IMG/VR virus record: IMGVR_UViG_3300021963_008236
Coordinates: 1-35,804 of that record
DNA length: 35,804 bases
Direction: 5' to 3' (one strand)
Source of the DNA: a virus
Under the pieces are notes generated by a model. It had not been told where the DNA came from and ran no database searches. It was given only the letters and a program-made list of their open reading frames with translations. Made by a program: the position numbers and the translations under genes. Of this stretch, positions 8,855 to 35,439 are shown one piece after another (position 1 is the stretch's first letter; every line of letters starts with the position of its first letter).

Positions 8855-8940
8855 ACTATCATAAGCAGCGGGGGTCCAAACTTCGTATAAGTCCTGCCCC
8901 TCCCATGCCTCTCAACGATGCACAAACAGGGAGGTCTCTT

Positions 8941-9560: not shown

Positions 9561-9956
9561 ATGTTTCATAACTGCAAAAACACCAAGAAGCAGGGTGATG
9601 TTGGATTGGGTAGTTGTATTTCTCATTTTTGTAATCTTGGATATACAGTTTCAATTCCATTAACTGATAGTCAAGATTATGATTTGATTGTTGAGTTTCC
9701 TGAACTTGGACTTCAAAAAATACAAGTAAAAACTACAAACTCAAAATCATCTGGTGGAAAGTATATTGTAGGGTTGAGAATTACTGGTGGAAATAGTAAA
9801 TCTAATTTCGTCAATAAACTCAATACTGAAATTTTTTATGATCAGTTATTCATACTGACTTCTGGTGGAGATAAGTATCTTATTCCAAAAGACATCATAA
9901 AGAATAATAAAAACTCAATCAATCTTGGTGAAAATTACTTGCAGTATAAAATCTAG
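9561..9956 (+). CDS. PD-(D/E)XK nuclease, I-Ssp6803I-like
   Basis: 131 residues. The core reads GLGSCISHFCNLGYTVSIPL, then DYDLIVEF with Asp41 and LQKIQVKTT with the Q-x-K triad end (Gln55, Lys57). This matches PD-(D/E)XK nucleases of the PDDEXK_5/I-Ssp6803I type; I-Ssp6803I is the tRNA-intron homing enzyme of Synechocystis and also uses QxK. Here there is no intron: the gene sits between tRNA-Lys and tRNA-Tyr, and the G of its TAG stop is the first base of tRNA-Tyr. It is driven by its own late promoter. Target specificity is unknown; a tRNA-gene target is a natural guess. Confidence 0.78.
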   Translation: MFHNCKNTKKQGDVGLGSCISHFCNLGYTVSIPLTDSQDYDLIVEFPELGLQKIQVKTTNSKSSGGKYIVGLRITGGNSKSNFVNKLNTEIFYDQLFILTSGGDKYLIPKDIIKNNKNSINLGENYLQYKI

Positions 9957-10068: not shown

Positions 10069-10142
10069 GGGATCACATGTACCAAGGCTGGCGAGATTGC
10101 TTTGCAAGCAAACTGTGAGGAGTTCGATTCTCCTTGAGTCCA
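10069..10142 (+). tRNA. Atypical tRNA-Ala(TGC)
   Basis: Loop TTTGCAA on a TTGC/GCAA stem and a good T arm (AGGAG-TTCGATT-CTCCT). The acceptor GGGATCA/TGAGTCC has an A-G mismatch and the D arm does not form normally. A 14-bp palindrome (CCTCTTTAAAGAGG, 10048-10061) precedes it and a UUCG hairpin (10142-10160) follows. It may be a decaying copy of the Ala tRNA at 9018. Confidence 0.5.
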
Positions 10143-10156
10143 TTCCCTTCGGGGGA

Positions 10157-10258
10157 ATTTAGAAAAGGAAAGATATGGCGTTCGAATCGCCTTACTCGGA
10201 GGGGACGAATTATATCCCCCGGTAGTTTAAGTGGACTAAAAACAGTTCTTTTCTAAGT
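10157..10258 (+). ncRNA. Stem-closed, permuted-tRNA-like element P1
   Basis: A 13-bp closing stem (ATTTAGAAAAGGA at 10157-10169 with TTCTTTTCTAAGT at 10246-10258, two G-T pairs) ends at the base before tRNA-Gly. Inside, in order, are a T-arm-like hairpin (GGCG-TTCGAAT-CGCC), a GGGGA/TCCCC hairpin, and a D-arm-like GGTAGTTTAAGTGG stretch ending ACTAAAAACAG. This is the order expected of a circularly permuted tRNA. The role is unknown. Confidence 0.5.
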
Positions 10259-10330
10259 GCGGAATTAGTTCAGTGGTAGAACGCAACCTTGCCAAGGTTG
10301 ATGTCATCGGTTCAAATCCGATATTCCGCT
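10259..10330 (+). tRNA. tRNA-Gly(GCC)
   Basis: GCGGAAT/ATTCCGC acceptor, anticodon stem CAACC/GGTTG, loop TTGCCAA. Confidence 0.95.
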
Positions 10331-10353
10331 TGGGTACTTAGGTATCCTAACAA

Positions 10354-10461
10354 AATGAAAAAGAAATGGGTTTTCGATTCTCCCCCTGGGCTCCATGCCT
10401 GGAAAGTAGTTTAAATAGGTGCAAAGGTAAGTTCTTCTTATCCAAAAACTTCTTTTTCATT
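10354..10461 (+). ncRNA. Stem-closed, permuted-tRNA-like element P2
   Basis: A perfect 12-bp closing stem (AATGAAAAAGAA with TTCTTTTTCATT) ends 3 bases before tRNA-Asp. Inside come a T-arm-like GGG...TTTTCGATTC...CCC, a GGGC-TCCAT-GCC hairpin, and a D-arm-like AAGTAGTTTAAATAGGTGC stretch, the same order as in P1. A short stem TTAGG/CCTAA (10338-10350) precedes it. Confidence 0.5.
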
Positions 10462-10464
10462 ATT

Positions 10465-10538
10465 CGCCCATTAGTGTAGCGGTCTATCACGCCTCTCTGT
10501 CTAAGAGGAGATCAGGGGTTCAAATCCCCTATGGGTGG
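10465..10538 (+). tRNA. tRNA-Asp(GTC)
   Basis: CGCCCAT/ATGGGTG acceptor, anticodon stem CCTCT/AGAGG, loop CTGTCTA. Bases 10539-10680 after it hold no tRNA I can complete, only hairpins (GAGTTA/TAACTC, CATTCTTC/GAAGAATG, CCAGTT/AACTGG). Confidence 0.94.
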
Positions 10539-10907: not shown

Positions 10908-10909
10908 CT

Positions 10910-11067
10910 TGCCCTTGCCGTTGGTACGGTAACATAGGGTTCAACTTGATAAAGTAGTTTTAGATAGGTGTGCTGAACCCACACTGATAAGAACCTCCCT
11001 CGTAAGGTCGTCTTCTTGTACGAAACATTAAGTCTATGAAGAGTGGGATCATTCCCCACCAAGGGCA
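10910..11067 (+). ncRNA. 158-nt multi-helix element closed by an 8-bp stem
   Basis: TGCCCTTG (10910-10917) pairs perfectly with CAAGGGCA (11060-11067). Inside are a perfect 7-bp stem GGGTTCA/TGAACCC (10937-10943 and 10974-10980) holding GTAGTTTTAGATAGG, an ACCT/AGGT hairpin and a GTGGG/CCCAC hairpin. It ends 5 bases before tRNA-Ile. No gene or known RNA recognised. Confidence 0.45.
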
Positions 11068-11072
11068 CACAA

Positions 11073-11977: not shown

Positions 11978-11978
11978 A

Positions 11979-12043
11979 TATAAGTAAACAATCCTAGCTT
12001 GGAAATAAATGGAAGGTGCAAATTCTTACTTTGTTTACTTATA
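11979..12043 (+). ncRNA. Element closed by a perfect 13-bp stem
   Basis: TATAAGTAAACAA (11979-11991) and its exact complement (12031-12043) enclose 39 nt with CTTGGAAATAAATGG and GGTGCAAA, resembling part of P2. It ends 4 bases before tRNA-Cys. Confidence 0.5.
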
Positions 12044-12047
12044 TAAT

Positions 12048-12297: not shown

Positions 12298-12978
12298 ATG
12301 TCAAATCAAAATAAATCCAGACAAAAAAGAAGTATATTATGGTCTGTTCCCAAACAGGAATTGGAACTTATTATTCTCAATAGTTCTTCTTATTCTGAAA
12401 TCCTAAGAAAACTTAATATATTTTCTCAAGGTTCTAATATAAACACATTAAAAAGAAGAATTTTATCTGAAAATATAGATACTTCACACATCAATAAAGG
12501 GATGTCTTCTAATAAAGGCAGAAAATTTGGACCACACAAATATTCCATTCCCAATGATATTTTATTTACTGAAGATTCTTCCAAATCAAGAAGCATTGTA
12601 AGGAAAAGATTATTAAGAGATTCTCTTATACCATATATGTGTTCTGATTGTGGATTAGAACCAAAATGGAACAATAAACCATTATCTATGGTTTTGGACC
12701 ATATCAATGGAGTTCCAAATGATAATAGACTGGAAAATCTAAGATTTTTATGTCCCAATTGCAATAGTCAAACAGATACTTTTGCTGGTAGAAATGTAAA
12801 ATTTTCTTCAAATAGTAAAGTCAAACATACTATTCCAAGAAAAAGAAAATTTGAAATTTCAAAAGAAGAACTCCAAGAACTTCTTAAAAATAACTCTTAT
12901 GTTTCTATTGGAAAAATGTTTGGAGTATCTGATAATGCAATTCGTAAAAGATGTAAAGTTTTTGGAATTTTAAATTAG
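12298..12978 (+). CDS. HNH homing-type endonuclease with C-terminal HTH
   Basis: 226 residues. The HNH core spans ~115-160: two zinc knuckles (CSDCG and CPNCN) around SMVLDHINGVPNDNRLENLR, whose D-H and N residues are the metal and catalytic positions. The N-terminal ~60 residues and the C-terminal segment (SKEELQELLKNNSYVSIGKM) look like DNA-binding helix-turn-helix units. It is free-standing between tRNA-Gln and tRNA-Leu. The G of its TAG stop is base 1 of tRNA-Leu, the same arrangement as the nuclease at 9561. Own late promoter. Function as a homing enzyme is inferred from family and setting. Confidence 0.85.
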   Translation: MSNQNKSRQKRSILWSVPKQELELIILNSSSYSEILRKLNIFSQGSNINTLKRRILSENIDTSHINKGMSSNKGRKFGPHKYSIPNDILFTEDSSKSRSIVRKRLLRDSLIPYMCSDCGLEPKWNNKPLSMVLDHINGVPNDNRLENLRFLCPNCNSQTDTFAGRNVKFSSNSKVKHTIPRKRKFEISKEELQELLKNNSYVSIGKMFGVSDNAIRKRCKVFGILN

Positions 12979-13073: not shown

Positions 13074-13148
13074 GTTGGGTTAGTCTAACGGTAAGATGCA
13101 GGTCTCCAAAACCTTGCGATGGGAGTTCAAATCTCTCACCCTTCGCCA
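13074..13148 (+). tRNA. tRNA-Trp(CCA)
   Basis: Loop CTCCAAA, stem CAGGT/ACCTT, good T arm, encoded CCA. The acceptor GTTGGGT/ACCCTTC has two T-T mismatches, so charging may be weak. Confidence 0.82.
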
Positions 13149-13151
13149 AAT

Positions 13152-13226
13152 GCCCTGGTAACTCAGTGGAAGAGTGCTTCGCTACGAACGAAGAAGACGG
13201 GGGTTCAAATCCCTCTCAGGGTGCCA
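13152..13226 (+). tRNA. tRNA-Arg(ACG)
   Basis: GCCCTGG/TCAGGGT acceptor, anticodon stem CTTCG/CGAAG, loop CTACGAA, encoded CCA. A34 would need deamination by host TadA to read all CGN codons. Confidence 0.92.
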
Positions 13227-13232
13227 TTTAAA

Positions 13233-13240
13233 TCTAAATA
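13233..13240 (+). promoter_or_regulatory. Late promoter variant TCTAAATA
   Basis: Nineteen bases before the HNH gene at 13260. Confidence 0.45.
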
Positions 13241-13259
13241 CGGTAGGTGCAAAAAAATC

Positions 13260-13730
13260 ATGGAATTAGTAGAACCACATTCCACAATATTGGTTCTGAA
13301 TAGTTCTTATGAACCATTACATTTCACAAATTGGAAAAGAGCAATTGTTCTTCTCTTCAAGGAGAAAGCAAAACTCATTACTAAACGTGTAATCCGTTTA
13401 GTCAGTTATGTGAGAATTCCTTTCAATCAGGGTAAAAGTTCTTATCCTAGCAGATCTCTAATTTACAAGAGAGATGATTACGAATGTCAGTATTGTAGAT
13501 CTGAAAAAAATCTTACAATCGACCACGTAATTCCACGCTCCAGAGGTGGGCAAGATACTTGGGAAAACCTTGTTGCTTGTTGCTCTAAATGTAATTTGAA
13601 GAAAGGTAATTTACTTCTTTCTGAAACAAGTATGACTTTGAAGAAAAAACCAGAAGCACCTTTCAACCGTGTTTATCTGGATCTTCAAAAAAGTCGTATT
13701 TCCGAATGGAAAGATTATGTGATCGGTTGA
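13260..13730 (+). CDS. HNH endonuclease (cyanobacterial/phage type)
   Basis: 156 residues from the ATG at 13260 (MELVEPHSTILVLNSSYEPL); the frame extends back through tRNA-Arg, but that part is a shadow. The N-terminal half (NSSYEPLHFTNWKRAIVLLF, then VIRLVSYVRIPF) and the HNH core (CQYCRSEKNLTIDHVIPRSR, then GGQDTWENLVACCSKCNLKK) follow the widespread HNH family common in cyanobacteria. His and Asn of the HNH, and four zinc-binding Cys, are present. It sits between tRNA-Arg and tRNA-Val. It could be a homing enzyme or a host-derived repair or packaging-type HNH; the sequence does not decide. Confidence 0.85.
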   Translation: MELVEPHSTILVLNSSYEPLHFTNWKRAIVLLFKEKAKLITKRVIRLVSYVRIPFNQGKSSYPSRSLIYKRDDYECQYCRSEKNLTIDHVIPRSRGGQDTWENLVACCSKCNLKKGNLLLSETSMTLKKKPEAPFNRVYLDLQKSRISEWKDYVIG

Positions 13731-13890: not shown

Positions 13891-13908
13891 TTACGCCTTC
13901 GGGCGTAT

Positions 13909-13969
13909 AAGATGAGGCAGCAATTTACTGCACTAAACCGTTAATTTAGAAAAGCAAAAAACTCATCTT
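13909..13969 (+). ncRNA. CAGCAATT stem-loop element E1
   Basis: AAGATGAG (13909) pairs with CTCATCTT (ends 13969); CAGCAATT at 13918-13925 follows the left arm and an A-run precedes the right arm. First of five related 51-61 nt elements around the Ro-like gene. Confidence 0.55.
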
Positions 13970-13979
13970 GCTCAAAAAA

Positions 13980-14034
13980 AAGTTGATTCAGCAATTAACC
14001 TAATTGTATCTGAAAAACAACTAAACATCAACTT
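13980..14034 (+). ncRNA. CAGCAATT stem-loop element E2 in the Ro-like gene leader
   Basis: AAGTTGAT pairs with ATCAACTT; CAGCAATT at 13989-13996. Its right arm ends at the base before GGAG, the Shine-Dalgarno of the gene at 14046. Confidence 0.55.
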
Positions 14035-14045
14035 GGAGAAAAATT

Positions 14046-15512
14046 ATGACTTTTATTACTGCTCTGGAATCTCAAATGAATGACACCGTGACTTTGAACG
14101 GTGCAAAATCAAACAAGTCCACTCTGAATAAGTGTCTGGATTTGTTTGGAAAAATTGGTGCTTGTCGTAATGATGTCAAGCAAGCACAACGACTGTTTGC
14201 CTTTGCATATGCCGAGAATCCTGAAACTGCGACTCGCATTCTGTTTTGGGTACGGGATATTCGTGGTGGTCAAGGAGAGCGTGAAGTTTTCCGCAATCTC
14301 TTCAAGTATCTCGTAGAGGAAAATGGTGAAATTGGTGCTAAACTAGTTTCTCTGGTTCCTGCATATGGACGCTGGGATGACCTACTTGTTCTAGAAAACA
14401 CTTCTGCCTGGGATAATGTTCTGGGTGCAATTCAGTTCCAACTGAATTTGGATCGTGTTTCTTTCAAGGCAGGTTCGGCAGTTTCTCTGCTTGCAAAGTG
14501 GTTGCCTTCTATCAATGCTTCCAGCAAAGATAGCAAGCGTCTGGGACGTAAGATTGCAGAACATCTTGGTATGACTGAGCGGGAGTATCGTAAGGTTCTC
14601 AGCAATCTTCGTACTCACATTAACGTTGTTGAAAAGGCAATGTGCTCTAAGGAATGGTCTGTAATTGACTATTCTAAACTGCCTTCTCGTGCTGCATTTA
14701 TGTATCGCAAGGCATTTGCAAAGCAAGATGCAACTCGGTATGCTGATTATCTCAGTGCCGTTGAGAAAGGTGAAGCAAAAATCAATGCCGCAACTCTGTA
14801 TCCTTATGAAATTGTCGAACAGTATCTCTACAAAGGTGCTCGCAACGACAAAACCATTGACCTACAGTGGGAAGCACTTCCTAACTATATGGAAGGTAAG
14901 GAGTTTAACGGTCTGGTAGTTGCTGACGTTTCAGGTTCTATGAATGGTCGTCCTATGTCGGTTTCTATCTCTCTTGCAATGTATATTGCAGAGCGTAATA
15001 CTGCTGAAGTGTGGAAGAATAAGTTCCTGACTTTCTCCGCACAACCTGAACTTCAATCTATCGTTGGTTCTACCATCGGTAAGCGTATTGATAATCTTTC
15101 TCGTGCTGCTTGGCAAATGAATACTGACCTGATGGCAGTATTCAAAACTGTTCTGGATGCAGGTATGAGTAATGACGTTGCTGTTGAGGATATGCCTCAG
15201 AAACTAATTATCGTCTCCGATATGCAGTTTGACCGGTGTTGCAGTTCTAACAAGAGAACTAACTTTGAGCAAATTCAAAAACTCTACCGTAAGGCAGGGT
15301 ATGAGATGCCGAGTTTAGTATTTTGGAACGTCAATTCAATTGGTGGTAATGTTCCTATCACTACTCACGATACTGGCACCTGTCTTGTATCTGGATGTAG
15401 TCCTTCTATCCTGAAGTCCATTCTGACGGATAAGGTTCTTACTCCTGTTGACACTATGAACGATACCGTGTATAGTGAGAGGTATGAAGCAATCGGTGAG
15501 GTGTTTGCCTGA
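14046..15512 (+). CDS. Ro-like RNA-binding protein (DUF2828, HEAT-like ring plus vWA)
   Basis: 488 residues with good Shine-Dalgarno GGAG at 14035. The N-terminal ~285 residues carry the DUF2828 signatures ILFWVRDIRGGQGEREVFRN, YGRWDDLL, SLLAKWLPS and YRKVLSNLR. The C-terminal third is a von Willebrand A domain with an intact MIDAS (VADVSGSM, Asp294-Ser296-Ser298), then LMAVFKTVL and IIVSDMQFD. HEAT-like repeats followed by a vWA domain is the architecture of the Ro60/TROVE ring protein, and phage members are often labelled Ro-like. Ro60 binds misfolded RNAs and Y RNAs. Here the gene lies among tRNAs and is flanked by repeated structured elements, supporting an RNA role. RNA binding itself is inference. 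Confidence 0.85.
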   Translation: MTFITALESQMNDTVTLNGAKSNKSTLNKCLDLFGKIGACRNDVKQAQRLFAFAYAENPETATRILFWVRDIRGGQGEREVFRNLFKYLVEENGEIGAKLVSLVPAYGRWDDLLVLENTSAWDNVLGAIQFQLNLDRVSFKAGSAVSLLAKWLPSINASSKDSKRLGRKIAEHLGMTEREYRKVLSNLRTHINVVEKAMCSKEWSVIDYSKLPSRAAFMYRKAFAKQDATRYADYLSAVEKGEAKINAATLYPYEIVEQYLYKGARNDKTIDLQWEALPNYMEGKEFNGLVVADVSGSMNGRPMSVSISLAMYIAERNTAEVWKNKFLTFSAQPELQSIVGSTIGKRIDNLSRAAWQMNTDLMAVFKTVLDAGMSNDVAVEDMPQKLIIVSDMQFDRCCSSNKRTNFEQIQKLYRKAGYEMPSLVFWNVNSIGGNVPITTHDTGTCLVSGCSPSILKSILTDKVLTPVDTMNDTVYSERYEAIGEVFA

Positions 15513-15565: not shown

Positions 15566-15616
15566 TAGATGATTCAGCAATTAACTTCTTATTGCTAAAG
15601 GAAAAAACATCATCTA
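15566..15616 (+). ncRNA. CAGCAATT stem-loop element E3
   Basis: TAGATGAT/ATCATCTA stem, CAGCAATT at 15575-15582, A-rich before the right arm. It would be the very 5' end of its transcript and is followed 5 bases later by tRNA-like A. Confidence 0.65.
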
Positions 15617-15621
15617 GTTTC

Positions 15622-15739
15622 ACCAGAATAGTGTAACGGTAGCACACTTAAAAATCAGTTATCTAGTTTTAGATACGGACAGCAATTACTAATAATCCAT
15701 AGGGAGGAGGTGGTCTAGGTTCAATTCCTAGTTCTGGTA
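15622..15739 (+). ncRNA. tRNA-like RNA A with expanded anticodon arm
   Basis: 118 nt with perfect ACCAGAA/TTCTGGT acceptor, D arm GTGTAACGGTAGCAC and T arm CTAGG-TTCAATT-CCTAG. Instead of a 17-nt anticodon arm there is a ~65-nt domain with hairpin TATCTA/TAGATA, then GACAGCAATTACTAATAATCC (octamer at 15680-15687) and GGAGGAGG. No loop with T33 can be made, so it probably does not decode. A terminator follows. Confidence 0.65.
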
Positions 15740-15764: not shown

Positions 15765-15849
15765 GGGGAAGTTCTCGGGGGGACCTGAGGTTATCTTGTT
15801 TTAGATAAATCTGCATCTTACTTAATAAGTTCGACTCTTATCTTCCCCG
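15765..15849 (+). ncRNA. tRNA-like RNA C, class II shape with odd anticodon loop
   Basis: GGGGAAG/CTTCCCC acceptor, CTC/GAG D stem, T arm ATAAG-TTCGACT-CTTAT and a long variable region. The anticodon hairpin is TTATC/GATAA with eight bases (TTGTTTTA), or six if the closing T-A pair forms; no Leu or Ser anticodon fits. The hairpin resembles those in tRNA-like A and B. Confidence 0.55.
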
Positions 15850-15853
15850 CTTA

Positions 15854-15905
15854 TAGATAGTTCAGCAATTTAAAAATTTTCATACAGAGAAAAAACAACT
15901 ATCTA
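15854..15905 (+). ncRNA. CAGCAATT stem-loop element E4
   Basis: TAGATAGTT/AACTATCTA stem (9 bp), octamer at 15863-15870. It differs from E3 by paired changes in the stem, which supports a conserved helix. Followed 5 bases later by tRNA-like B. Confidence 0.65.
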
Positions 15906-15910
15906 GTTTT

Positions 15911-16029
15911 GCCGAAATAGTTTAATTGGGTAAAACGCTTAAAAACAGATATCTTGTAAAAGATACAGACAGCAATTACTAATAATCCATGTTAAGGAGG
16001 TGTTCTAGGTTCGAATCCTAGTTTCGGCG
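15911..16029 (+). ncRNA. tRNA-like RNA B with expanded anticodon arm
   Basis: 119 nt; perfect GCCGAAA/TTTCGGC acceptor, D arm GTTTAATTGGGTAAAAC, T arm CTAGG-TTCGAAT-CCTAG. The anticodon stem CTTAA/TTAAG encloses ~50 nt with hairpin TATCTT/AAGATA and CAGCAATTACTAATAATCC (octamer 15970-15977). The insert is nearly the same as in A although the tRNA bodies differ. Confidence 0.65.
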
Positions 16030-16030
16030 T

Positions 16031-16086
16031 TAGATGATTCAGCAATTAAAAAAACTTTTCTGTAAAAAAAGCCAAAAAATCATCTA
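16031..16086 (+). ncRNA. CAGCAATT stem-loop element E5
   Basis: TAGATGATT/AATCATCTA stem (9 bp), octamer at 16040-16047, starting two bases after the end of tRNA-like B. Confidence 0.6.
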
Positions 16087-16111
16087 GTTTAAAACTAAAT
16101 AATAAAATCAT

Positions 16112-33317: not shown

Positions 33318-33463
33318 ATATACATACACGGGGTTAAGAACCGTGTCTTCTGCAACCGAGACCATCAGAAGTAAAGCGTCTCTCATACCTGCACTGGAGG
33401 GTGGTGTAGGACATAATGTAACCAGTTCGTCCCCCGAACTCATATTTACCCCTTTTCAATTAA

Positions 33464-34111
33464 ATGACTGCTACAATTGCTACACGTTCTAATACTATTA
33501 ACCCCTGGCAGAACTTCTGCGAGTGGGTTACTTCAACTGACAATCGTTTATATGTTGGTTGGTTCGGAGTCCTTATGATTCCTTGCCTACTTGTTGCTAC
33601 TTCAGTTTTTATTATTGCTTTTATTGCAAATCCGCCAGTAGATATTGACGGTATTAGGGAACCAGTAGCAGGTTCTCTAATGTATGGAAACAACATCATC
33701 TCTGGTGCAGTTGTTCCTTCTTCTAATGCTATTGGATTGCATCTTTATAATCTTTGGGATGCTGCTTCTATTGATGAAGCACTTTATAATGGTTGGGCAT
33801 ATCAAGCAGTGGTATTCCACTTTTTGATTGGTGTTTGGTGCTATCTTGGTCGTGAGTGGGAACTCTCATTCAGACTTGGAATGCGTCCTTGGATTGCAGT
33901 TGCTTATAGTGCTCCTGCTATTGCTGCGACTGCTGTATTCTTGATTTATCCCTTTGGTCAAGGAAGTTTTAGTGACGGAATGCCTCTTGGTATTTCTGGA
34001 ACCTTTAATTATATGCTTGTATTTTCTGCAGAACACAATATTCTTATGAATCCGTTTCATATGTTGGGTGTTGCAGGTGTTTTTGGTGGAAGTCTTTTTT
34101 CCGCAATGCAT
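33464..34111 (+). CDS. psbA: psbA exon 1 (photosystem II D1 protein, residues 1-216)
   Basis: [20 protein letters not shown] through [13 protein letters not shown]1 is the reaction-centre core protein of photosystem II and turns over fastest under light; phage copies keep photosynthesis going during infection. The frame is exactly 216 codons to the 5' splice site after CAT. Transmembrane helices A to D lie here; the QB and manganese ligands near the C-terminus are in exon 2. Joined to exon 2 it gives 360 residues, the normal D1 length. Confidence 0.96.
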
Positions 34112-34198
34112 AGGGAACTGTGCCCTTGCTGAGTAATCAGTAAGTGAAAATCGGGTGAACTGCTGGAACCCTAAGTTACTAAAATGTTACTTGACTTA

Positions 34199-34206
34199 TA
34201 TAAATA
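34199..34206 (+). promoter_or_regulatory. Late promoter TATAAATA inside the psbA intron
   Basis: Exact octamer 21 bases before the intron nuclease ATG at 34227; TTGACT at 34191 lies too close to be its -35. Confidence 0.75.
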
Positions 34207-34226
34207 ACTCTGGTAACATAAACAGT

Positions 34227-34904
34227 ATGACTAATCACTACTTATCTTTTATTGAGGAATGTAAATCTAAAACATATCCTCCCAATACTTATCTTGAAGA
34301 ACACCATATTGTCCCAAAACACGATGGTGGTTCAGATAATTCAGAAAATCTAATTTCATTATCTTTTGACGACCACATACTCGCACATAAAATAAGATAC
34401 GATGTATACGGTCAAGTTTATGACTTAGCAGCATATAACTTGATGTGTGGTTTTGATGGTGAAGGTTGGAGACTTCTTAGAGTTGAAGGTGCTTATAAAA
34501 CACACCAAGCACTGAGATTATCCAAGAAAAACTTTTGGAGTTCTGATTATCAAAAAGAAATGTCTGCTCGTTCTGTAAAGTCTGAGTATGCTATGAAAAT
34601 GAGAAGTGTTGGTGGTAAAATTGGTGGTAAGAATAGAAACAAAAATGTTGCTATTACTTCTACTGATAAGTATATTTTCTTTCACAATAAAGTAGAAACA
34701 GTTTGTATAATAAACTGCGAAACTGGTGGAGAAGTTTTAGAAGAACTACAAAAAATAGTTCCTAATCAAAACTTCAAGAGGGTAACACCTTTATTAAAAA
34801 AACAAAGAGAAAATGCATATGGTTGGTCTTGTGAAAAGTTTAGTAATACGGCAATCAGCATCCAAGTCTCAGATACATCTGAGAAAGGTTCAGAGACTAC
34901 CTGA
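34227..34904 (+). CDS. Intron-encoded HNH homing endonuclease
   Basis: 225 residues from the ATG at 34227; the upstream in-frame ATG at 34155 precedes the late promoter and looks unconserved. HNH core YLEEHHIVPKHDGGSDNSEN, then LISLSFDDHILAH. A basic segment (GGKIGGKNRNKN) near 150 and a C-terminal FKRVTPLLKKQRENAYGWSC tail probably bind DNA. It would cut intronless psbA to spread the intron. Related intron and nuclease pairs are known in cyanophage psbA genes (for example S-PM2). The separate late promoter lets it be made late, apart from early psbA mRNA. Confidence 0.88.
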   Translation: MTNHYLSFIEECKSKTYPPNTYLEEHHIVPKHDGGSDNSENLISLSFDDHILAHKIRYDVYGQVYDLAAYNLMCGFDGEGWRLLRVEGAYKTHQALRLSKKNFWSSDYQKEMSARSVKSEYAMKMRSVGGKIGGKNRNKNVAITSTDKYIFFHNKVETVCIINCETGGEVLEELQKIVPNQNFKRVTPLLKKQRENAYGWSCEKFSNTAISIQVSDTSEKGSETT

Positions 34905-35004
34905 GGGGTTTAGTCCCCTTAATAACAGGAATAAGTGCCCGACAACCTAATACAACTTAGGTTGATGATATAGTCCACTCCTTATGAAAATGAGGTATAA
35001 TAGG

Positions 35005-35439
35005 GGTTCCCTCGTAACCTCTTCAATCGTTCGTGAAACTACCGAAACTGAATCCCAAAATTATGGTTATAAGTTCGGTCAAGAAGAAGAAACGTATAAT
35101 ATCGTTGCTGCTCACGGTTATTTTGGTCGTCTTATTTTCCAATATGCTTCCTTTAATAACTCCCGCAGTCTCCACTTCTTCCTCGCTGCCTGGCCCGTTG
35201 TGGGTATCTGGTGTGCTGCTATGGGAATTGCCGTTTCTTCTTTCAATCTCAATGGTCTAAATTTTAATGAATCAATTCTAGATAACCAAGGACGAGCAAT
35301 TCCTACTTGGGCAGATATGCTTAATAGGGCAAATTTGGGTCTAGAAGTGGTCCACGAAAGGAACGCACATAACTTTCCTTTAGACCTTGCTAACGTAGAA
35401 GCAACTCCTGTTGCTCTTACTGCCCCAGTAATCGGTTGA
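35005..35439 (+). CDS. psbA: psbA exon 2 (D1 residues 217-360)
   Basis: [20 protein letters not shown] through [12 protein letters not shown]. Contains the DE loop, QB site ([14 protein letters not shown]), helix E and the lumenal C-terminus with [17 protein letters not shown], which holds manganese-cluster ligands and the CtpA processing region. Reading frame joins exon 1 precisely at GGT. A terminator follows. Confidence 0.95.

Follow-up and report, generated by a model that had tools for sequence, protein, structure and literature searches.

The window, by which we mean the whole 35.8 kb virus record that was analysed, is cyanophage-like in carrying a split psbA together with a PhotoRC-II RNA, and the nearest named relative that we found for it is Synechococcus phage B23 (Kyanoviridae). 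The psbA gene (photosystem II D1) lies in two pieces at 33464-35439 with a homing endonuclease ORF between the pieces, and the PhotoRC-II RNA is found 5' of it at 33334-33424. An array of about 28 tRNAs spans 8.9-19.5 kb of the window; endonuclease genes are interspersed in this array, one PD-(D/E)XK and two HNH (9561-9956, 12298-12978 and 13119-13730). Just 5' of the first tRNA is an abiF RNA match (8899-8935; 53.8 bits against a cut-off of 37), and such matches near tRNAs occur also in the contigs L007, L010 and L107. Inside the array are two elements, P1 (10157-10258), directly 5' of tRNA-Gly(GCC), and P2 (10354-10461), 3 nt 5' of tRNA-Asp(GTC), which an earlier note on this DNA had described as laid out like circularly permuted tRNAs. 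P1, P2, the gene for a Ro60-like protein (14046-15512) and the RNAs that flank this gene all lie on the + strand.

The Ro60-like protein

The 488-residue product of 14046-15512 falls into phrog_850, labelled 'RNA-binding protein', and its sole Pfam listings at E<=0.001 are DUF2828 and DUF7788; the Pfam TROVE domain gave no match. It is 71% identical to a protein of B23 and 40-41% identical to mycobacteriophage proteins annotated as Ro-like RNA-binding proteins, and relatives were found in 667 phage records, while a sequence search of the PDB returned no Ro relative. A single-sequence AlphaFold prediction reached a pLDDT of 39, and an alignment of 45 sequences from the window and the collected loci was used instead, which gave an AlphaFold2 model with a mean pLDDT of 90. 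When this model was submitted to Foldseek, Ro60/TROVE structures were the only matches at E<=0.001. It aligns to Xenopus Ro60 (1yvr) with a Z of 23.9, at 3.7 A over 404 residues, and contains both the HEAT-like ring and the vWA domain. The structure alignments list also Deinococcus radiodurans Rsr and the Ro60 of Thermus phage phiLo; a literature search on phage Ro60 with Thermus returned nothing, though the PDB lists the phiLo protein. The MIDAS residues of the predicted vWA domain, D294, S296 and S298 (DxSxS), T360 and D392, are invariant in the 45 sequences. Based on the modelled fold, rather than on a Pfam TROVE match, we regard the product as a Ro60-fold protein.

Architecture and relatives of P1 and P2

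The two ends of P1 can pair in a closing helix of 13 bp (10157-10169 with 10246-10258), counting two G-U type pairs, and the 3' arm of this helix abuts tRNA-Gly(GCC) at 10259; 11 of 3000 flank shuffles reached a helix as good. Enclosed by it are, in order, a T-arm with a 4 bp stem and the loop TTCGAAT (10176-10192), a closed acceptor-like hairpin of 5 bp, AGGGGA/TCCCCC, as read from the sequence (10200-10220), and a D-arm-like stretch, TAGTTTAAGTGGACTAAAAAC (10223-10243). The relatives of P1 amount to one other sequence type, represented by the contigs L016/L108 and L109, which are nearly identical among themselves. Compared with L109, three of the nine aligned closing-helix pairs have undergone double compensatory changes, and the T-loop is retained in L016/L109 although the T-stem differs. 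In place of P1's acceptor-like hairpin, L109 has a longer two-hairpin domain. The D-like TAGTTTAAGTGGACTAAAAAC is identical in L016, L108 and L109, and because it is invariant the D-arm pairing that GTTT and AAAC might form gets no support from covariation; this pairing is ambiguous, as the minimum-energy fold of P1 favours a rival hairpin, TAGTTT/GGACTA. The D-arm itself is putative.

The closing helix of P2 is a perfect 12 bp (10354-10365 with 10450-10461), which was reached by 6 of 3000 flank shuffles. It is followed by a T-arm-like hairpin with the loop TTCGATT (10368-10384), a closed acceptor-like hairpin CTGGGC/GCCTGG (10386-10402), taken from the sequence and the alignment of the relatives, and a D-arm-like stretch TAGTTTAAATAGGTGCAAAG (10407-10426), nearly invariant in five sequences with its GG retained. 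An extra hairpin at 10426-10443, absent from the earlier note, shows compensatory changes in B23, L010 and L107. Relatives of P2 were found in B23 (88.9%) and in three other contig types, namely L008/L010 (80%), L106 and L107. The T-stem, of 3 bp here, extends to 5 bp without mismatch in L106 and L107 (GTCTG/CAGAC and GGAGG/CCTCC), so that the TTCGA of the loop has stayed constant while the stems were wholly replaced. Across the five sequences 91.9% of the cells of the proposed structure are paired, and seven pairs carry double changes, where shuffling gives a mean of 2.7. In a set of 50,697 phage records B23, which also has a Ro gene, was the only one with the whole of P2. Two contigs picked up by a pattern search with the P2 T-arm lacked the rest of P2, and these were taken as chance matches.

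P1 and P2 have in common the TTCGA(A/T)T T-loop, the closed acceptor-like hairpin, an invariant TAGTTTAA...GG and the T-acceptor-D order, and a covariance model built from the P2 family picks up P1 from end to end without a shift of register, though as a weak hit (20.1 bits; E 0.6 in 0.56 Mb). The own-end closing stems of 12-13 bp, the T-arm-like hairpins and the closed acceptor-like hairpins of the original description are all found, the last with stems below 7 bp (4-6 bp) that are short or variable, and the permuted order is real and is conserved, with compensatory changes, in relatives of both elements, absence of conservation having been named at the outset as an argument against the proposal. 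Neither ARAGORN nor the Rfam tRNA model (RF00005) makes a call on P1 or P2. They have no anticodon loop and no open 7 bp acceptor, and the position of the anticodon is buried in the 12-13 bp helix; since the anticodon loop is missing and the acceptor is closed, P1 and P2 would be unable to decode or to be charged. This agrees with the suggestion, made with the first description, that they are mimics rather than tRNA genes.

CAGCAA RNAs at phage Ro loci

Near Ro genes the hexamer CAGCAA recurs just inside a helix, with an A-rich opposite strand. Such a helix accompanies 218 of the 506 occurrences in the collected loci (the same letters in other orders average 13%). A set of 56 divergent loci has 55 elements of this kind at most 700 nt from the Ro gene, distributed over 34 loci (control hexamers: mean 2.1, maximum 8). 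They occur at the Ro loci of cyano-, myco-, Bacillus, Listeria, Felix O1-like and Campylobacter phages. In Listeria phage AG20 (L121, 4650-4925), for instance, three tandem CAGCAA stems stand with a TTGACA-type promoter directly 5' and the Ro gene 3'.

Many of the CAGCAA RNAs outside the cyanophages (Faith1, L047, L048, L049, L057, L104 and others) enclose a perfect permuted tRNA, in which the helix surrounds a T-arm, a flush closed acceptor of 6-7 bp, TA/TG and a 4 bp D-arm. Twelve of these canonical sequences show 97.4% pairing, a percentage that is partly built in by their selection with a structural descriptor, and 65 double-change cells, where shuffling yields 21.4 on average; the descriptor itself finds 47 matches in the loci and about two per shuffled set. 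Rfam YrlA finds the permuted RNA of L104 with E 1e-7 and 47.2 bits, a score short of the curated cut-off of 69. At L022 1950-2070 and L047 2912-3030 a CAGCAA helix encloses a D-anticodon-T tRNA body without an acceptor, as if the Ro-type helix had taken the place of the acceptor stem.

The cyanophage clade has the hexamer in two settings, minimal stems and tRNA-like RNAs whose arms follow the ordinary order. The window has five of the former, one upstream of the Ro gene (13908-13970), one in its leader (13980-14034), one downstream of it (15566-15616) and two more that likewise consist of helix and motif (15854-15905 and 16029-16088). The latter are represented at 15622-15739, where a capped CAGCAA hairpin replaces the anticodon loop and the Rfam tRNA model scores 44 bits with an insert, and at 15911-16029, also with a capped CAGCAA hairpin and a member of the same alignment. 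Between them is a compact tRNA-like RNA (15765-15850) that includes a TTATCTTGTTTTAGATAA hairpin, a 7 bp acceptor and a T-arm, and whose relatives are readable in L007 and L010. The un-permuted CAGCAA RNAs keep acceptor, D and T arms intact and were found beside the Ro gene in L003-L081 and L106. Their alignment of 36 sequences shows 97.2% pairing and 221 double-change cells, compared with 68 on average after shuffling; the set was selected on 6/7 acceptor pairs plus a T-arm, on which the figure for the acceptor leans, and neither D-stem pairs, 96.5% of which are formed, nor hairpin pairs were required for selection. The B23 copy is annotated tRNA-Undet. A reading of these RNAs as intron-bearing tRNAs was rejected: after the anticodon stem comes an insert with A-rich sequence, and there is no U33-like position. 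The un-permuted CAGCAA RNAs, 5 kb from P1 and P2, may be a more informative discovery than these two elements.

Possible roles of P1 and P2

The bacterial Y RNA whose structure is solved corresponds to a tRNA that is circularly permuted (PMC11472068). P1 and P2 resemble YrlA (RF02553; Salmonella structure 6CU1) in the helix formed by their own ends, in the T-acceptor-D tRNA-like module that it closes, with the D-arm pairing putative here, and in the Ro60-type protein encoded in the same genome. They differ from it in that P2 has an extra hairpin, in their position within a viral tRNA array instead of beside the Ro gene, and in that their binding to Ro is presumed. In 10140-10470 the covariance search for YrlA that had been recommended found nothing at E<=10. 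With R3, a model of the canonical permuted core of the phage RNAs, P1 scores 14.7 bits and P2 5.0 bits, and tandem tRNA junctions reach up to 33 bits; because this score cannot separate permuted RNAs from tandem junctions, we relied on the closing helix and the compensatory changes as evidence. The CAGCAA hexamer is absent from P1, from P2 and from their relatives. Without a YrlA match, a high R3 score or the hexamer, P1 and P2 were not assigned to the Y RNA family; we class them as Y-RNA-like permuted tRNA mimics, which should not be listed as Y RNAs. The resemblance to bacterial Y RNAs noticed at the start thus gains from the Ro60-fold protein in the window and from the permuted Y RNAs of related Ro phages, and loses by the missing YrlA match and hexamer.

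Among phages there is a likeness to the Ro-locus Y RNAs of mycobacteriophage Faith1 and its relatives, where a T-acceptor-D module is likewise set in a closing helix and the Ro-like protein is of the same family; Y RNAs of mycobacteriophages were reported by Chen 2014, as cited in PMC12282133. The Faith1-type RNAs run helix-CAGCAA...A-rich-helix, whereas P1 and P2 are without CAGCAA, and their shorter acceptor-like stems are set off from the T-stem instead of flush with it. Listeria phage CKA15 has a Ro-like gene downstream of tRNA genes and very abundant non-coding transcripts: transcription is among the strongest in the non-coding regions upstream of its Rsr-like gene, and its authors tentatively attribute this to Y RNAs (PMC12282133). 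The Y RNAs there are proposed and unproven, and no permuted elements are described for that phage. A related Listeria phage, AG20, is the one noted above with three CAGCAA stems 5' of its Ro gene. Stable RNA C (species 1) of phage T4 is similar in being a stable tRNA-like RNA within a phage tRNA cluster. T4 RNAs C and D were considered as candidate kin of P1 and P2; RNA C has the ordinary order, with its T-arm at the 3' end, and is not permuted.

We consider P1 and P2 to be non-coding permuted tRNA mimics that most likely belong to the Ro60-type ribonucleoprotein repertoire of this virus, a reading to which we give a probability of about 0.5. It is put no higher because CAGCAA is missing from both elements and neither covariance model recognises them. 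Ro-locus RNAs are present in seven of the eight carriers of P1 or P2, the eighth carrier being a 5.3 kb contig, and since every carrier belongs to one phage clade this co-occurrence with Ro is not independent evidence; several Ro-bearing relatives gave no clear P1 or P2 match in the stretches searched. Within this reading, P1 and P2 would be co-transcribed with the tRNA array, and their 3' ends might be freed, or nearly so, when the tRNA that begins 0-15 nt downstream is cut at its 5' end. Their own ends would then form a helix at the position of the anticodon arm, followed by the T-arm, the closed acceptor-like hairpin and the D-like stretch, and the T-loop could dock with the D-like GG, so that a tRNA elbow would be displayed to RNA-binding proteins. 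The resulting particle might join the Ro ring or occupy elbow-binding proteins, the Ro60-fold protein and the CAGCAA RNAs being encoded 3.5-6 kb downstream. If P1 and P2 work at all, they would work like the tRNA modules of Y RNAs. Taken together, P1 and P2 in a viral tRNA cluster, a Ro60-type protein and RNAs of the partner type suggest that this virus brings along a complex for handling RNA that is of the Ro60/Y RNA kind.

Alternatively, P1 and P2 might act independently of Ro, as decoys that present a tRNA elbow to host tRNA-handling proteins while offering no anticodon or CCA end; modification enzymes, RNase P and tRNA-cleaving defence nucleases could be imagined as targets. The lack of the hexamer would suit such decoys, as would the location among genuine tRNAs, away from the Ro gene, and the retention of the T-loop and the D-like GG while the stems drift. 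The topology is nevertheless that of a Y RNA, a Ro protein and Y-RNA-type RNAs are found in the same cluster, and the targets are purely hypothetical, so that we hold this explanation to be doubtful.

A less probable origin is the decay of adjacent tRNAs, whereby a 3' half and the 5' half of the tRNA that follows would have been left as debris. The T-acceptor-D order is by itself no evidence against this, because tandem tRNA arrays give a T-arm and then the next D-arm automatically. The Rfam YrlA model and the canonical permuted model both match ordinary tandem junctions, and fit those of this window better than they fit P1 and P2; the T-stem of P2 itself is also imperfect. Against decay are the closing helices: the P1 helix (25.4) exceeds those of all 101 ordinary T-arm-to-next-D-arm junctions taken from the collected tRNA arrays (maximum 24.1). 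The compensatory double changes in both families, the preservation of P2 at 80-89% identity in several phages and an order that has stayed constant while stems changed likewise speak for maintained structures.

That the hairpins are chance products, or serve merely as processing spacers or terminators between tRNAs, appears quite improbable. Both elements do lie immediately 5' of tRNA 5' ends, and their whole-fold z values are modest, -1.8 for P1 and -2.5 for P2, which is why we treat conservation as the stronger evidence; but a spacer would not need a conserved T-loop and D-like sequence, and the compensatory changes in P1 and P2 go against it too.

Some algae and archaea have permuted tRNA genes, in which the 3' half precedes the 5' half, and to our knowledge no maturation of permuted tRNAs is known in bacteria or phages. 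That P1 and P2 are such genes, yielding functional tRNAs through a circular intermediate, is scarcely credible: the 3' part of P1 (TAGTTTAAGTGGACTAAAAAC) does resemble a tRNA 5' half with a possible TCT near the anticodon position, but the anticodon region lies wholly within the closing helix, the acceptor-like stems amount to 4-6 bp, with two hairpins in their stead in L109, and joining the ends of P1 or P2 gives neither the anticodon stem-loop nor the 7 bp acceptor that the algal and archaeal genes restore.

Returning to the reading of P1 and P2 as mimics in a Ro60-type repertoire, we note that, in our alignment, the capped hairpin of the un-permuted RNAs (...CTAGTTTTAGAT...) looks like the 3' and 5' ends of the open stems joined together (...ATCTAGTT + TTAGAT...). 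For this reason we speculate, tentatively and as a possibility rather than an expectation, that a single design, a tRNA body in which a Ro-type helix replaces the anticodon arm, is present in the viruses of this clade as both of its circular permutants. In the un-permuted form the helix would be capped (15622-15739 and 15911-16029), and in the permuted form the acceptor would be capped (P1, P2 and the CAGCAA-bearing permuted RNAs of other Ro phages). Y RNAs are tRNA-like yet permuted; if the two-permutant proposal is true, phage tRNA arrays would be the place where tRNAs gave rise, or still give rise, to them. Within 6 kb of one virus there are permuted mimics free of the motif, un-permuted RNAs with it and minimal stems with the motif only, and the CAGCAA signature offers a handle on the ligands of phage Ro particles and on the reason for their retention by phages.

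Three further stretches of the array have features in common with these elements. At 11978-12044 a perfect 14 bp inverted repeat (ATATAAGTAAACAA/TTGTTTACTTATAT) surrounds AGGTGCAAA, as in P2, and has no T-arm. The stretch 10070-10141 is a degenerate tRNA-like sequence with the T-loop TTCGATT and TGC at a plausible anticodon position, on which neither ARAGORN nor Rfam tRNA makes a call. Lastly, a structured non-coding stretch of 164 nt at 10909-11072 is kept at 90-95% identity in L005, L006 and L007, and includes AAAGTAGTTTTAGATAGGTG, which resembles the D-like stretch of P2.
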